From positions 1-26,132 of IMG/VR virus record IMGVR_UViG_3300010885_041446: a DNA stretch of 26,132 bases. One strand, 5' to 3'. Source of the stretch: a virus. The translations under genes and the position numbers were made by a program. This document shows positions 914 to 20,651 of the stretch, in pieces. The notes beneath the pieces are model-generated. The model worked only from the letters and a program-made list of their open reading frames with translations. It did not search any database and was not told the DNA's origin. Each line of letters opens with the position of its first letter. Position 1 is the stretch's first letter.

Positions 914-1147
914 TTACCCCTTTAATTCGCTGTCTGATAATCTTGCTAATTCATTGTAGCCATCAACAAACAGTTTGCCATCTTTATAAATTTGCGGAAC
1001 CGACCGATGGCCTTGGCCTACTATAAACTCGTGTGCTTCTATGTTTGTGTCTACATTAATTACCTCAAAGTTAACTCCTTTATTAGTAAGTAATATTTTA
1101 GTTTTTTGACATAATGGACAATTTTCTTTTGAATATACTGTTATCAT
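914..1147 (-). CDS. Glutaredoxin (NrdC-like)
   Basis: The 77-residue protein has a compact thioredoxin fold: strand MITVYSK, redox motif C10-P-L-C13, the conserved V50-P51 cis-proline turn, and a G-Y pair near residue 63. Length fits small phage or bacterial glutaredoxins. T4 NrdC reduces the phage ribonucleotide reductase, and nrdA and nrdB lie a few kb away, so this is the likely electron donor for that enzyme. The active site is CPLC rather than the more common CPYC or CPFC. An AAGG-type ribosome-binding site sits ahead of the ATG. The gene is divergent from the desaturase at 1201, sharing a 53-bp intergenic region with it. Confidence 0.85.
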   Translation of the reverse strand: MITVYSKENCPLCQKTKILLTNKGVNFEVINVDTNIEAHEFIVGQGHRSVPQIYKDGKLFVDGYNELARLSDSELKG

Positions 1148-1200: not shown

Positions 1201-2004
1201 ATGACTTTATTACAACCCTTTAAAAATATTTCCAACTTTAACAAAGTTAGGATAGTTCAAGCAGTACTCTATTTAATCACAATATATACCTTGCTTTTAT
1301 TTTTTAATACAACACTATTTTTATTAGGATTAGTTTTATCCTGGTTTTTCTTTGCTTTTGGTGTTTCTATAAGTCTACACAAATATTCAAGTCATAGATC
1401 ATTTGAGCCTAAAAATTTACTAATTAAACATTTTTTACTTTGGTGCGGAACGCAAACCACGCTAGGTACAAGTTTAGAGTTTGCAGCTGGACATAGAACT
1501 CATCACAAACATAGTGACACTGATCAAGATCCATTTGCATTAACTTCATCCTTTAAACACAATTTAAAGTTATGGTTTTTATGGTTTGACACTAGTTTAG
1601 TTAATCCAACTATTATTAAAGATCTTACTAGAGACAGTACTCATAAATTTTATCACAGAAACTATTGGAAGATTTGGGCAATATACCCTGTGGTATTGTT
1701 AATAATTAATCCTTTATATGTGTCTTATTTCTTTGCATTACCAGTTGTTTATTGTTTACTAGGTATGAGTTGGGTAACTGTGATTGCACATAGCCCAACT
1801 CTGCAAAAGTTTTTTATTGGTTCAAAAACTAGTACACAAGATCTAAGTTGGAACAGCGTATTTTTTACTGTGTTATTTGCCGGTGAGGGCTATCATGAAA
1901 TACATCATCAATTTCCTGGAATCAGTGACTACGGAATAAAAAATAACAGATTAGATGTTTCAGGAAAACTTATTAACGTATTGGGTAATCCTAACACTGT
2001 TTAA
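1201..2004 (+). CDS. Fatty-acid desaturase (acyl-CoA/acyl-lipid type), paralogue 1
   Basis: The 267-residue integral membrane protein carries the three histidine boxes of di-iron fatty-acid desaturases: H60-KYSS-H65, H98-RT-H101-H102 and H232-EI-H235-H236. H197 may be a further ligand. Hydrophobic segments near residues 20-58 and 160-197 are the likely membrane hairpins. The family uses O2 and electrons from ferredoxin or cytochrome b5 to place a double bond in acyl chains. In a phage it would alter host membrane lipids, or lipid signals, during infection. It is one of only two plus-strand genes and is driven by its own late-type promoter. Its stop overlaps the stop of the convergent paralogue by 4 bp. 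Residues 59-72 match paralogue 2 almost base for base (see the repeat entries). The substrate and double-bond position cannot be read from sequence. Confidence 0.9.
   Translation: MTLLQPFKNISNFNKVRIVQAVLYLITIYTLLLFFNTTLFLLGLVLSWFFFAFGVSISLHKYSSHRSFEPKNLLIKHFLLWCGTQTTLGTSLEFAAGHRTHHKHSDTDQDPFALTSSFKHNLKLWFLWFDTSLVNPTIIKDLTRDSTHKFYHRNYWKIWAIYPVVLLIINPLYVSYFFALPVVYCLLGMSWVTVIAHSPTLQKFFIGSKTSTQDLSWNSVFFTVLFAGEGYHEIHHQFPGISDYGIKNNRLDVSGKLINVLGNPNTV
1375..1415 (+). repeat. Inverted repeat, left arm (inside desaturase 1)
   Basis: This 41-bp block matches the reverse complement of 2623-2663 with a single mismatch (position 1407, G against A). It encodes the first histidine box and the SFEPK stretch after it, starting at codon 59. 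Flanking bases diverge at once. The two arms are inverted and enclose about 1.2 kb. Confidence 0.9.
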
Positions 2005-2834
2005 GTATGAAAATGTTGATCAAACTCTGTCTGATAATTTTTTCCAATTAGTTTAATCAACCACCAACCAAAGTCCCAATCTTTTTTATTAAACTTATTA
2101 TGTGCGGCTCCTGGGAGTGCGTGGTGATTATTATGATTACCATCTCCGGGTACAAAAATTGCCGCAAGACGACTATTAAATGTTAAGTCTTGACTATCAA
2201 AATTAGTATAACCTATTAATTTATGTAACCATGTTTTATGAGCCAATACTGTAATATAACTAATAGCAGTAAACGCATATACTATAGGCACAAAATAAAA
2301 ATAACCTGCTACCTTAGGTGAAATTAAAAACAATAGTAAGAACCAGCCCAAGTTAATTTTAAAATAATTTTGATGAAAAAATTTGTGCTCTCTATCAATA
2401 CTTAAATCTTTAACGGTTCTTGGATTAATATGATATGTTGGAAAATAATAAAACCATAATCTAATACCACGCCATATACCGCCACCATTTAAGTTAGGAC
2501 TATGTGGATCTTCTTCTTTGTCTGAAAACTTGTGATGCTTTCTATGAGTACACGCCCAACTAATATTGCTACCTAAAGAAAGTACTGTACTTGAAAATAA
2601 CATTAATACTTTCCAGAAAAGGTTTTTAGGTTCAAATGATCTATGACTTGAATATTTGTGTAGTCCGCATGCTGCGCCCATTAAAAATACTAGCCAGGAA
2701 AAAACAAGAGATGCGACTAGCCACACCCAATCAAAGTATACAAACATAGTTACTAGAAAACCTGCATATCCAAATGCCTGTAACAGTTTAACTCTGCTAT
2801 CTAGTGGAAAGAGTTTATAAAACCAATTAAACAT
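2001..2834 (-). CDS. Fatty-acid desaturase, paralogue 2
   Basis: The 277-residue product has the same three histidine boxes as its convergent neighbour: H59-KYSS-H64, H97-RK-H100-H101 and H234-NN-H237-H238. It also shares a VKDLS..HKFFHQNYFKI-like stretch around residues 141-160. The two proteins clearly belong to one subfamily but differ over most of their length. The ATG overlaps the nrdB stop (TAATG), so translation is coupled to nrdB and expression follows the nrdA-nrdB operon, unlike paralogue 1, which has its own late-type promoter. Box 3 is DGNHNNHH here and GYHEIHH in paralogue 1, which may mean different substrates or redox partners. Like nrdB it is a di-iron enzyme. Confidence 0.9.
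   Translation of the reverse strand: MFNWFYKLFPLDSRVKLLQAFGYAGFLVTMFVYFDWVWLVASLVFSWLVFLMGAACGLHKYSSHRSFEPKNLFWKVLMLFSSTVLSLGSNISWACTHRKHHKFSDKEEDPHSPNLNGGGIWRGIRLWFYYFPTYHINPRTVKDLSIDREHKFFHQNYFKINLGWFLLLFLISPKVAGYFYFVPIVYAFTAISYITVLAHKTWLHKLIGYTNFDSQDLTFNSRLAAIFVPGDGNHNNHHALPGAAHNKFNKKDWDFGWWLIKLIGKNYQTEFDQHFHT
2623..2663 (-). repeat. Inverted repeat, right arm (inside desaturase 2)
   Basis: This is the partner of 1375-1415, with 40 of 41 bases identical on opposite strands. On the minus strand it begins at codon 58 of paralogue 2, in the same reading phase as the other arm. Ser, Arg and Leu codons with six-fold choice are the same in both copies, which protein conservation alone would not require. 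Confidence 0.9.
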
Positions 2835-9106: not shown

Positions 9107-9427
9107 TTAAACAGTAAAACTTTCTCCGCAACCGCATTCAGCTTTGGCATTGGGATTTTGGAATTCAAATCCTTCGTTAAGTCCTTTTTTGGCATAGTTG
9201 ATTTCCATACCCTGTAGATAAACTATATCTTTTTTATCAATTAATAAAGTAACACCACGTTCATCTATTTTAATATCATGCTCACGTACTTCATCAGCAA
9301 ATTCTAACACATAAGCAAAGCCACTACATCCAGCAGTGCGCACACCGATACGCATGCCAATACCATGACCGCGATTATATAATGCATCTTGCATGTGTTT
9401 AGCGGCTATTTCAGTTAAACTAATCAT
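9107..9427 (-). CDS. iscA: A-type iron-sulfur carrier (IscA/ErpA/SufA family)
   Basis: The 106-residue protein is a full-length A-type carrier with the three ligand cysteines: C34 in TAGCSGFAY, and C98 and C100 in AECGCGESF. These hold an Fe or Fe-S unit between scaffold and target apoprotein. The family is widespread and IscA, ErpA and SufA cannot be separated by motif alone; the symbol is chosen because iscU is in the same operon. The ATG overlaps the stop of the monooxygenase gene (ATGA), and AAAGGA lies about 11 nt upstream inside that gene. No cysteine desulfurase, ferredoxin or HscBA is present in the window, so the host must supply sulfur and chaperones. Confidence 0.93.
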   Translation of the reverse strand: MISLTEIAAKHMQDALYNRGHGIGMRIGVRTAGCSGFAYVLEFADEVREHDIKIDERGVTLLIDKKDIVYLQGMEINYAKKGLNEGFEFQNPNAKAECGCGESFTV

Positions 9428-10750: not shown

Positions 10751-11134
10751 CTATTGGGTAATCTGCTTACTTTTGTAATCTGCTATAGCCGCACGTATAC
10801 TATCTTCTGCTAACACGCTGCAGTGAATTTTTACAGGAGGTAATGAAAGTTCTTCTGCGATGTGTGAATTTTTAATTGTTCCGGCTTCCTCTAGTGTTTT
10901 ACCTTTGAGCATGGTTGTTACCAATGAACTTGACGCAATCGCACTGCCACATCCATAGGCCTTAAACTTGGCATCAGTGATAATTCCATCATGTATTTCT
11001 ATCTGTAATTTCAGAACATCTCCACAAGCCGGGGCACCTACTAGGCCTGTGCCTACGTCTTTTGAGTTTTTATCTAAAATACCAACATTACGAGGGTGTT
11101 CGTAATGATCTAAAACTTGTTCTGAATAAGCCAT
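10751..11134 (-). CDS. iscU: Iron-sulfur cluster scaffold protein IscU
   Basis: The start MAYSEQVLDHYEHPRNVG is the classical IscU N-terminus, so I choose ATG 11134 (GGAGA at 11143-11147 is its ribosome-binding site) and not the TTG at 11149. The product is then 127 residues. Ligands are C37 (with D39), C62 and C105 (with H104), close to E. coli C37, C63 and C106. The segment L98-P-P-V-K102 is the HscA chaperone-recognition motif. IscU assembles 2Fe-2S clusters on sulfur from IscS and passes them on via HscA/HscB and A-type carriers. A phage copy that keeps both cluster ligands and chaperone site is probably functional and dependent on host IscS and HscA. It is the first gene of the operon and has a sigma70-type promoter. 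Confidence 0.95.
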   Translation of the reverse strand: MAYSEQVLDHYEHPRNVGILDKNSKDVGTGLVGAPACGDVLKLQIEIHDGIITDAKFKAYGCGSAIASSSLVTTMLKGKTLEEAGTIKNSHIAEELSLPPVKIHCSVLAEDSIRAAIADYKSKQITQ

Positions 11135-11161
11135 ATTATGGATCTCCAATAGTATAGTACT

Positions 11162-16905: not shown

Positions 16906-17646
16906 TTATAATGAATATTTTGGTTCTTCTTTAACTCTGCCTAAATCTGCAGCTTGATTATAGAAGGTATTAAATTTACTAATGTTTGAGGATTTTAATA
17001 CTGGATAAAGCCTTGTTGTTTTGTCTCTTAATACTTGACCGCGCATTGCTGCAGGTAGTTTATCTAAAAACCATCCGTCTTTTCTAACTATAATATTAAT
17101 ACCTTCATCTCTATAATCAGGGTGAGCAAATTTATATTGTGAATCTGCATCTATTACACTTCTAATATCTTCCGCAGGACCGCCAGAAACACCAGAAGCC
17201 GAAGGCTCGTTAATTTGTTTTCCTGCCGTAACTGCTGTAATAATATTTTTAAATTGTTCGGGTGTTGCGTTGGTATCAGCTTTATTATTAACTAAGTTTT
17301 TTACAGCTACATCAATTTCTTTTTTTATATCAGAATTTAAATGAGACATATCATCAAATCCGGTTAATGTATTATTGATAAATTTTAATAGTAAATTTCT
17401 GTATGCATTATTATCAAGCTCTTGATTATTATTTGCTGTCATTGCCTTTTGTAATACACCTTGCCAGGCTGAAGCAGCAGTTTTACCCATGGTATCAAAT
17501 ACTTTATTTTTACGGATCTGTTGTATTTTTTGACTAAATGTAGCATTGTCTGGTAGACCCTTGATATCTGATGTTGCTAAGACCTTGCTGGCACCTTTAG
17601 CTAGATCCCAAAGTGGTCCTTCTATTAAAATCTCATTAATCTTCAT
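16906..17646 (-). CDS. Possible internal virion protein (246 aa)
   Basis: The helical, Asn/Lys/Ala-rich product opens MKINEILIEGPLW. This has two (I/L)xE sites (INE and LIE) in the first nine residues, in the style of T4 capsid-targeting leaders cut by gp21. The C-terminal third is different, with an IIVRKDGWFLDKLPAAMRGQ stretch (about 184-203) that looks like a small globular domain. No known family is recognised. It overlaps the 81-residue gene upstream by 11 bp and lies in the transcript from the late promoter at 18221-18228. Confidence 0.6.
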   Translation of the reverse strand: MKINEILIEGPLWDLAKGASKVLATSDIKGLPDNATFSQKIQQIRKNKVFDTMGKTAASAWQGVLQKAMTANNNQELDNNAYRNLLLKFINNTLTGFDDMSHLNSDIKKEIDVAVKNLVNNKADTNATPEQFKNIITAVTAGKQINEPSASGVSGGPAEDIRSVIDADSQYKFAHPDYRDEGINIIVRKDGWFLDKLPAAMRGQVLRDKTTRLYPVLKSSNISKFNTFYNQAADLGRVKEEPKYSL

Positions 17647-17881
17647 CTTTTTTTCTCAATGATCGCGAAAACTTATGTATATCTCTTGCACGAATAGCAT
17701 TAACAAACTTACGTTGTAAATCTTCAGAGTCTTCGGAATTATAAAGTTTTTCAATTTGTTCAAATAAATGAATAGCGGATTGAATAACATTTCTGCCACG
17801 GGTCTCAATGACATGATTTTTGTCTCGAACAATATATAGATCGTTGAGTTCGTCTAAGATGCTTTTTGTGTGTTTTTGCAT
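17636..17881 (-). CDS. Conserved-type small phage protein (81 aa)
   Basis: The all-helical product opens MQKHTKSILDELNDLYIVRD, then HVIETRGRNVIQSAIHLFEQ (23-42) and a basic end (ARDIHKFSRSLRKKDED). I associate this pattern with a small uncharacterised protein of T4-type marine phages. It is 10 bp downstream of the 100-residue gene and overlaps the next gene. Function unknown. Confidence 0.65.
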   Translation of the reverse strand: MQKHTKSILDELNDLYIVRDKNHVIETRGRNVIQSAIHLFEQIEKLYNSEDSEDLQRKFVNAIRARDIHKFSRSLRKKDED

Positions 17882-17891
17882 ATATTAGCTA

Positions 17892-18194
17892 TTACACACT
17901 CCAGAATTGTTTCAGATGCATTAGAGTTGCGTCTAAATCGCCCTTATCATTAATCTCACCGTCTTCATCGTAAAACGCTTCTTGTGCTGAAATGTATGCT
18001 TTATTTCTAGCATCATAGACACTACTAGGAATCATCTCATCATCATAGTCTGCTCTTAGAGCATCTTCTGTAAAATCCATGGCCCATTCTAAAGTACGAG
18101 CATTTGCTTGTGGTGCTAGTAATATGCTTTTTAGACGTTTGCTGGTCAAATGATCAAACGTTGGCTGTGTTTGTGTTACTTCAAATATTTTCAT
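17892..18194 (-). CDS. Small acidic late protein (100 aa)
   Basis: The 100-residue product opens MKIFEVTQTQPTF, again an MK(I/L)xE start, and is acidic and helical in its second half (FTEDALRADYDDEM). An exact late promoter TATAAATA (18221-18228) and an AAAGG ribosome-binding site precede it. It heads the late operon running to 14521. No known motif. A role as internal or scaffold component is inference from start and position. Confidence 0.6.
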   Translation of the reverse strand: MKIFEVTQTQPTFDHLTSKRLKSILLAPQANARTLEWAMDFTEDALRADYDDEMIPSSVYDARNKAYISAQEAFYDEDGEINDKGDLDATLMHLKQFWSV

Positions 18195-18220: not shown

Positions 18221-18228
18221 TATTTATA
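18221..18228 (-). promoter_or_regulatory. T4-type late promoter for the 18194-14521 gene block
   Basis: Minus strand is exactly TATAAATA, 26 nt ahead of the ATG at 18194. It overlaps the end of the broken radical SAM gene. Confidence 0.75.
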
Positions 18229-18511
18229 TATTTTGCCCGCAGACCGTGTCACAAATAACCAGTCTACCTGTTTCAAATGATGGCTTAGACCAGGACTCTT
18301 CTACTTTATTAAACCAGGTTATGCACTGTGCTAAACTATATTCTATAGCATTATTCTTTTGAATTAGATCTTTAAATTGTGCGTTGGCGGCCTGGTGATA
18401 CATGCCTGTACCGTATGTTTTTGGTTGAAACCCAAGATAACAACAAGGGTATATGTCGCCGAGAGATGAAACGTATAGTGATTTTTGTTTTTTAACTTGA
18501 CAAGATATAGT
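18224..18511 (-). pseudogene. SPASM/twitch C-terminal part of the broken radical SAM gene
   Basis: After the TAA at 18512-18514 the same reading frame stays open for 95 codons to TAA at 18224-18226. It encodes what looks like the auxiliary-cluster domain of a radical SAM/SPASM protein: C243 (ISCQVK), YP-C262-C263-YLGF, C302 (AQCITWF), and C326-DTV-C330, numbered through the stop. There is no ATG near its beginning. It is therefore either dead, read by stop-codon suppression, or the stop is a sequencing or assembly error. It fills the apparent gap between 18195 and 18511. Confidence 0.8.
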
Positions 18512-18540
18512 TTATGCGGGTATTGTTGAAACTATATCTT
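18502..18540 (-). repeat. 12-bp perfect inverted repeat around the in-frame stop
   Basis: The arms AAGATATAGTTT (18502-18513) and AAACTATATCTT (18529-18540) are exact reverse complements with a 15-nt loop. The TAA that breaks the radical SAM gene sits on the loop-stem border (18512-18514). No T-run follows, so it is not an ordinary terminator. Confidence 0.85.
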
Positions 18541-19228
18541 CAAGTAAAATTTCGTCTGTGGTTGCTGATTTAAATAATACTTTAAAATTAGTTTCTTTTG
18601 GCTTTCCTAACGTATGAGATAAATTTCCTTTTCGATCAAATACCGGTCCGGTGTCACGACCGTCATTTACTATTAAAAATTCTTTAAAACCCAACTTAAT
18701 AGATAATGCTCGGCAGTCAGCAAGTTGATGATTATTATGATCAAACTGAATCATTTTCCAAGTAGCTCGGCCTCCCGCTGATATAAATGTTTGAGCATTT
18801 TTAATTATTTTTTTCCAGTTTGTATCTTGCCTATATAAATGATGTGTGTCTTCAAGACCATCTAAGCAAAAAATAACCTGGGCATTAAGTTGCGCTAATT
18901 TAGTCCAAAATACTTTATTTCTTGCACTGCCGTTGGTACTAATTTGTATTACTAAGTTTTTATTAAGGTTGCGGAAATATTCAATGATATTAGTTGTATA
19001 AGGATTCATTATTGCATCGCCAAAATTTCCATTTATATAAACTGTGTTAAGTTGTTTAACAAATGAAGGTGAAAATATTTTTTTAATTTCAGCTAACGTT
19101 AAATTTTTTTCAGTATAGCCATGATTATGTGGATACCCATGAAAATTTCTTGGACACTTAGGGCAGCGAGCATTACATAGACTACTAACCTCTAAGTGAA
19201 TATGTTTAATTTCATCAATATTATACAT
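18512..19228 (-). CDS. Radical SAM protein, catalytic part (truncated by in-frame TAA)
   Basis: The 238-residue open frame has the radical SAM cluster motif C18-NAR-C22-PK-C25 near its start, preceded by IHLEVSSL. Later segments typical of the barrel are GNFGDAIMNP (residues about 68-77), ISTNGS (97-102) and FCLDGL (120-125). The family uses a 4Fe-4S cluster and S-adenosylmethionine to make a radical. SPASM members often modify peptides or other enzymes. The frame stops at TAA 18512-18514, yet the same frame continues into a clear SPASM-like region, so the ancestral protein was about 334 residues. It follows the helicase gene by 13 bp and is probably in the primase-helicase transcript. Whether the truncated form is active is unknown. 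Confidence 0.8.
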   Translation of the reverse strand: MYNIDEIKHIHLEVSSLCNARCPKCPRNFHGYPHNHGYTEKNLTLAEIKKIFSPSFVKQLNTVYINGNFGDAIMNPYTTNIIEYFRNLNKNLVIQISTNGSARNKVFWTKLAQLNAQVIFCLDGLEDTHHLYRQDTNWKKIIKNAQTFISAGGRATWKMIQFDHNNHQLADCRALSIKLGFKEFLIVNDGRDTGPVFDRKGNLSHTLGKPKETNFKVLFKSATTDEILLEDIVSTIPA

Positions 19229-19241
19229 TGATGTTGATGTC

Positions 19242-20651
19242 TTAACTTGACTTAATTTGATTTAACAAACTTTTTAGTTTTGCACTTTGAAAATCTGCGG
19301 CAACTTTGCCAGTGGGCTCGCTAGATTCTAATGACGTATCATTAAAACTTGAAGATGTTTTTATGGATGATAGTGTTGATAGAGTACTTGAATTATTGCT
19401 ATGATGTGCGGCCTGTTGTGATTCCTCACCAAGGTCAGAAATTCTTAATGTGTCAACATTAAATTCTAAATCAACTTTCATACCTACACCACTACTTGAC
19501 CGTGTCTTCATTAATTGAATTTGATAGCGGCCACGCTCACGCATTGCTCTACTAGTAAAGATACCAAATACGTTGTCTGCCGTATTAATTTTTGATAAGC
19601 CACCTGCAATATGACTGTGATCAAACTCAACTTCTTCTACAGCTGATCTATTTAACTGTGACGCAGTTACAAATAATACATCTAACTCGCGCGATAAATT
19701 ACGTAATTCTTCACTTACATATTTGTCTTTAACAAATAAATCATTTGGACTAACTTTAGCACTAACCGGCATTAATAAATCTAAATAATCTACTAATAAG
19801 AAGTCAACTTTTACTTTAGTTTGAATTTCTAACTCTTTTAAATATGCTCTAATGTCATTGACTGTGCTTTGTGCTGGGAGATACTTAATCCGTAAATTGC
19901 CAGCTTTTCTAGCTAATAATTTAACTTTCATTTCAACATTATCAATGTCTCTAAATATTTCCTTAGATGATGTATTTGTCATCATTGAATCCATGCGCAT
20001 TGATGCAAGGCCTTCACTTAATTCTAATGTCACATAAGCCCCACTAAGCCCAGCTTGCGCCCAATTTACTGCTAAATTTTGCATGAATAATGATTTGCCA
20101 CTACCCGATCCGCCTGCAAAAATGTTTAGTTCACCTCGATTAAATCCACCATACAATAATCGATCTAACGTTGGCCAACCTGTCGATAATTGTCCGTTAC
20201 TATTTTTAAGTGCCAATAATCTTGCTTTAGGGTCATCAAAATAGTCTGTGCCCATATCTTTAGTTAGACTTATCTGAACGGCATCTTTGATAAGTTTTTC
20301 TACTGGGTCATAGTTACCTTTTTCTAATAAATCCGCAGATTTAAGAATTGCACGTTCTAGTTCATAACGTCGTGTAAAACCTTCAAATTCTGATAGAAAC
20401 CAATCATAATGATGTTCACCAACATCTGGCACATGGTCTAATTTAAGTTTAGTAATTGCATATATCTGTTCAATTGTTGGTAGTGTTTTGAATTTATCAA
20501 CATGTTCCTGGATAAATCTAGCAGTGGGTTGCAACGTTCGATCAAAATTCTCTGGATTAAAGATATTTTGCACACGTATATAACTTGCTGAGTCTTGCAA
20601 CATCATCTCAAGTAATAGTTTTTGTAAATCGATTGAATAGTCTTTTGTCAT
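19242..20651 (-). CDS. Replicative DNA helicase (T4 gp41/DnaB-like)
   Basis: The 469-residue product has an N-terminal helical domain and a RecA-like core with Walker A G180-GSGSG-K186-S, catalytic-type E210 in VTLELSE, Walker B LLVD288YLDLL, an SQLNR motif around 336-340 and an arginine-finger region (RGRYQIQLMKTR). This is the hexameric helicase that unwinds the fork with primase. The C-terminal 65 residues are Ser/Thr-rich and look disordered, ending in a short basic helix, which may contact primase or loader. Three tandem AATAAAC repeats lie directly ahead of the ATG. It follows the primase by 46 bp. Confidence 0.93.
   Translation of the reverse strand: MTKDYSIDLQKLLLEMMLQDSASYIRVQNIFNPENFDRTLQPTARFIQEHVDKFKTLPTIEQIYAITKLKLDHVPDVGEHHYDWFLSEFEGFTRRYELERAILKSADLLEKGNYDPVEKLIKDAVQISLTKDMGTDYFDDPKARLLALKNSNGQLSTGWPTLDRLLYGGFNRGELNIFAGGSGSGKSLFMQNLAVNWAQAGLSGAYVTLELSEGLASMRMDSMMTNTSSKEIFRDIDNVEMKVKLLARKAGNLRIKYLPAQSTVNDIRAYLKELEIQTKVKVDFLLVDYLDLLMPVSAKVSPNDLFVKDKYVSEELRNLSRELDVLFVTASQLNRSAVEEVEFDHSHIAGGLSKINTADNVFGIFTSRAMRERGRYQIQLMKTRSSSGVGMKVDLEFNVDTLRISDLGEESQQAAHHSNNSSTLSTLSSIKTSSSFNDTSLESSEPTGKVAADFQSAKLKSLLNQIKSS

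Follow-up and report, generated by a model that had tools for sequence, protein, structure and literature searches.

The window, by which we mean the whole stretch of DNA analysed here, was the complete IMG/VR virus record IMGVR_UViG_3300010885_041446 of 26,132 bases, perhaps a genome fragment. It is a metagenome-derived phage contig, and the phage is environmental and probably T4-like. The features discussed are listed in Table 1. The gene of interest was a minus-strand frame with its ATG at 19228 and its final TAA at 18224-18226. As the sequence-only reading had it, this frame ran for 238 codons, met an in-frame TAA and went on in the same phase for another 95 codons, which contained six cysteines. 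The coordinates likewise agreed with the earlier description of a TAA straddling the border between the loop and one arm of an inverted repeat, whose arms were 100% complementary.

Table 1. Position of the interrupted gene, its parts and other genes in the window
Feature	Coordinates	Strand	Remarks
Front part: ATG-started radical SAM core of 238 codons, CxxxCxxC present	18515..19228	-	Pfam Radical_SAM, E 6.4e-5
In-frame TAA in the linker between core and SPASM	18512..18514	-	Sense codon in 74/74 aligned relatives
Rear part, SPASM-like, 95 codons in the same phase plus terminal TAA	18224..18511	-	Pfam SPASM, E 0.001
Perfect 12-bp inverted repeat with 15-nt loop	18502..18540	-	Arms 18502-18513 and 18529-18540
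DnaB-like helicase	19242..20651	-	Directly upstream of the radical SAM gene
Virion structural protein (phrog_11854)	17636..17881	-	Adjoins the radical SAM gene in relatives too
A-type carrier (Fe-S_biosyn)	9107-9427		Phage-borne Fe-S gene
IscU (NifU_N)	10751-11149		Phage-borne Fe-S gene
Glutaredoxin	914-1147		Phage-borne Fe-S gene

The earlier assignment to a radical SAM gene with a SPASM-like tail was supported by the Pfam matches of the window, by those of its relatives and by the fold matches of an intact relative, L008. The Pfam matches of the window were below the curated cut-offs, with 23.6 vs. 29.5 bits for Radical_SAM in the front part and 19.8 vs. 21.5 bits for SPASM in the rear part. 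The SPASM match of L008 was above the latter cut-off (23.2 bits). When 15 intact relatives were compared with Pfam, Radical_SAM was matched in all 15 and SPASM in 10 (E 0.001). The three cysteines of the cluster motif, C18, C22 and C25, were invariant in the 15 relatives and kept in the window. Thus, the gene has the CxxxCxxC motif in a partial TIM barrel by which members of the radical SAM superfamily are recognized. SPASM domains are C-terminal, rich in cysteine and house auxiliary Fe-S clusters, with the pattern CX9-15GX4C ... CX3C. The first half of this pattern and a final CX3C were seen, while the full cysteine set was not. The structure model of L008 (mean pLDDT 75, pTM 0.81) matched the radical SAM enzymes BlsE, SuiB, SkfB, MoaA and anSME, and NifB and viperin were also among its matches. 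Similar to the solved radical SAM/SPASM enzymes BlsE, SuiB, SkfB and anSME, the gene has CxxxCxxC, a SPASM-like tail and, as modelled for L008, the same overall fold; different from them, its core and SPASM parts are separated by a stop in the window. None of the NCBIfam models came near its own cut-off with this gene, and its substrate is therefore unassigned.

Scans of viral_contigs and genome_contigs yielded 139 loci with a match, some of which were one contig fetched twice. They comprised 121 loci with an intact gene, defined as an open frame of at least 300 amino acid residues (82 distinct proteins), two with a frameshift (L012 and L072), five cut at a contig end (L013, L022, L046, L090 and L194) and 11 that were too distant and were set aside. 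One of the viral_contigs scans contributed the best 80 of 565 loci by score, a choice that disfavours broken copies. For the column of the stop and for the bases of the hairpin arms, 74 distinct relatives of at least 320 residues from viral_contigs were aligned, with the genome_contigs copies omitted, and every one of the 74 had a sense codon in place of the TAA. The nearest relatives of the window were about 62% identical to its front part and up to 70% identical to its rear part. Neither an exact pattern spanning the stop, with NNN in its place, nor a degenerate SPASM-motif pattern had a match among the viral_contigs records open to the search. Searches of phage records gave three matches only, all from Campylobacter phages; in CP220 and F379, the radical SAM gene was 28% identical over residues 1-165 only.

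Both parts of the interrupted gene were intact. In a comparison of the window with 64 other representatives, all less than 90% identical to one another, the window kept every near-invariant column, 63 of 63 ahead of the stop and 24 of 24 behind it. In the trees of the two halves, the end branch of the window was 0.40 for the front and 0.33 for the rear. The scaled ratio of the two, 0.75, ranked 19th across the 50 end branches whose front-tree length exceeded 0.1, and the rear part evolves no faster than the front part. By our own estimate (exp(-24d) = 0.05), the lack of any loss in 24 columns makes it unlikely that the rear part has drifted neutrally by more than about 0.12 replacements per site. 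Given the 24 columns kept and the ordinary branch ratio, the stop must be young, suppressed or an error, and the earlier impression that the tail still looks coding, so that the break is recent or suppressed, was borne out by the same two results. The linker between the core and SPASM, in which the stop lies, varied in length among relatives. In the L008 model, linker residues 222-239 were disordered, with pLDDT below 50, and the stop position comes before the first SPASM cysteine. The linker of the window was as long as that of L008; thus, nothing has been inserted at the stop. The nearest relatives of the two halves also differed, being L132 for the front (no firm clade) and L111 and L008 for the rear, which may reflect recombination at the linker, the tree support being weak and the rear alignment having 95 columns.

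To judge from the gene content of related loci, the gene is accessory, or optional, in this phage group. Among 80 loci with the helicase, the radical SAM gene was found downstream of it in 14 and was absent from 51 with at least 1 kb of downstream sequence; 14 others were too short, and the last (L099) had an upstream, distant match only. Moreover, 13 of 14 larger records from the set lacking the gene were without a match anywhere, and one had only a match of 19%. The helicase gene itself was unbroken in all of 92 loci (83 distinct). With the radical SAM gene broken in three cases (window, L012 and L072) against 82 distinct intact copies, it is not clear that breaks are in excess of those in the helicase. 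The single frameshifts of L012 (283-560) and L072 (2819-3100) both lay between approximately residues 50 and 65 and could be errors or true lesions.

The TAA lies in a variable linker between two intact parts and is found in none of the aligned relatives. We consider it most probable (roughly 0.72) that it arose by a recent nonsense mutation, private to the window, in an accessory radical SAM/SPASM gene of the phage, with the hairpin being incidental. The TAA would have been acquired recently on the lineage of the window. Translation would end there, and the resulting radical SAM core, lacking SPASM, would probably be inactive in the reaction of the family. No ATG, GTG or TTG precedes codon 37 of the rear part, a point beyond its first three cysteines; separate translation of this part was rejected on this ground, and it is probably left untranslated. 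The phage would tolerate the truncation because the gene is optional in its group. Three results count against this interpretation: even the nearest relatives of the window are too remote to separate an error from a mutation, the rear part is without any decay, and the hairpin overlaps the stop and folds stably relative to its shuffles (see below). The last of these leaves room for a hairpin-linked cause of the stop.

The main rival, ranked next, is that the gene of the phage itself is whole and that the TAA stems from a base-level mistake in sequencing or assembly or from the consensus taken over a mixed population. The contig comes from a metagenome, both halves look fully intact, and two other copies are frameshifted once each, the frameshift of L012 adjoining a run of six C. 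However, the window contained no other interruption, and the largest gap between its listed ORFs was the one behind the TAA stop. The unbroken helicase copies, moreover, indicate that errors are rare in such contigs. An error is a possible, though unlikely, source of the stop.

The hairpin was the only perfect repeat of at least 12 bp (loop 3-40) across the window. Such a repeat occurred in 9 of 60 first-order Markov simulations of the window. When codons were resampled with the protein kept, a repeat of at least 12 bp appeared somewhere within the gene in 6 of 600 draws and overlapped the stop in 61 of 20,000 draws, from which the chance of the coincidence is about 0.3%, as judged after the fact. 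The RNA fold of the 91-nt region had a z of -4.3 against its own shuffles, but 593 of 1737 equal-sized windows of the same strand were as stable or more so. A conserved hairpin was rejected: for 66 of the 69 scored relatives (six further distinct copies were missed by the motif), the longest repeat in the linker was 4-7 bp; two others had one of 8 bp and the last had one of 10 bp, so that only 3 of the 69 reached 8 bp. The 10-bp repeat, in the intact gene of L169, was a different perfect inverted repeat in the same linker. The arms of the hairpin in the window sat on conserved codons, those for E-D-I and I-S-C. Because these codons can pair with certain synonymous choices, the hairpin is most likely incidental.

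The hairpin could also be tied to the origin of the stop, if a template switch between imperfect arms perfected the repeat and made the TAA, a route compatible with a recent mutation. Template switching between the arms of inverted repeats has been documented in yeast, as the portions consulted of the two sources describe (PMC8604942; PMC3820800), and a perfect 12-bp repeat overlaps the stop here, where resampling rarely puts one. Nevertheless, each base of the arms was present at its aligned position in at least 8 of the 74 relatives, so no private block of changes marks an arm as copied. The outer 7 bp also stand in the intact relative L123, and, together with the bases shared by relatives, they imply that the arms could have come from ordinary codon choice. 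The nearest relatives are, in addition, too far from the window to reveal the ancestral arms. We regard a template switch as doubtful.

The truncated protein could instead be functional as a core-only radical SAM enzyme, with its SPASM part on the way to being lost. There are radical SAM enzymes that lack a full SPASM domain. In the window, the core and its CxxxCxxC motif are intact, and the fold matches of L008 included MoaA, NifB and viperin. Against this stand the undecayed rear part and the open frames of at least 300 residues in all 82 distinct copies called intact, which make a core-only enzyme highly improbable.

Readthrough of the UAA, programmed or tolerated and helped by the hairpin, would make the full-length enzyme, and its programmed form had been offered earlier; it would suit a rear part that keeps its phase and conservation but lacks its own start, and a hairpin that overlaps the stop. 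It found no support when relatives were compared for a sense codon and a hairpin, since all 74 had sense and 66 of 69 had at most 7 bp of repeat; where readthrough is maintained, the stop and a stimulating structure are expected to be kept, and here the stop recurred in 0 of 74 and a hairpin of at least 8 bp in 3 of 69. TAA is also the usual terminator in the window, ending 30 of its 36 listed ORFs, and an alternative code with TAA reassigned was rejected for the same reason. A ribosome halted at the stop would, moreover, probably hold the 5' arm of the hairpin inside or behind it. No tRNA gene was found in the window (a partial genome), nor was any Rfam family. In bacteria, readthrough is reported, in the part of the source consulted, to be lowest at UAA (PMC5289835). 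Such readthrough is thus extremely improbable, and we would scarcely expect its more elaborate form, in which lineage-specific, regulated UAA readthrough at a stop bordering an RNA hairpin switches the enzyme between core-only and SPASM-bearing states.

In T4 gene 60, also a gene of a phage, a stop codon likewise lies beside a stem-loop; there, according to the section of the source consulted, the stop adjoins the take-off codon and a gap of 50 nt is skipped (PMC5009743). Different from gene 60, the gene of the window has no coding gap, its frame is unchanged and its linker equals that of L008 in length. Translational bypass was rejected, as there is no extra non-coding stretch, and no sign of a recoding device was found.

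If the stop is real, phages in nature can lose this optional enzyme, and the locus is a caution against taking a hairpin-adjacent stop as evidence of recoding. The radical SAM/SPASM family of such phages merits more study than the stop, because its substrate is unassigned and it is almost absent from the searched phage records.

The setting of the gene can be compared with that in the environmental phages of Nishimura et al. (2017; PMC5332604). The window resembles those phages in gene content. As far as the portion consulted goes, T4-like environmental phages carry Fe-S genes and many radical SAM genes (PMC5332604), and the window likewise has IscU, an A-type carrier, glutaredoxin and a radical SAM gene; the interrupted gene is not described in section 14 of that paper. 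Of the records that have the radical SAM gene, 11 of 16 (the window counted) also had IscU, vs. 5 of 14 of those without it, a difference that is small and, the records being incomplete, not firm. The IscU match in record G005 that carried a TAG flag turned out to be an ordinary whole ORF. For the 246-aa ORF of the window, no relatives were found in the search for them. Two fatty-acid desaturase genes of the window, at 1201-2004 (plus strand) and 2001-2834 (minus strand), were convergent, with their ends overlapping. Finally, the 100-aa ORF behind the radical SAM gene (17892-18194) had relatives of 57-79% identity in nine other loci, in which neither a radical SAM gene nor the helicase was found, and this ORF seems to move between gene neighbourhoods.
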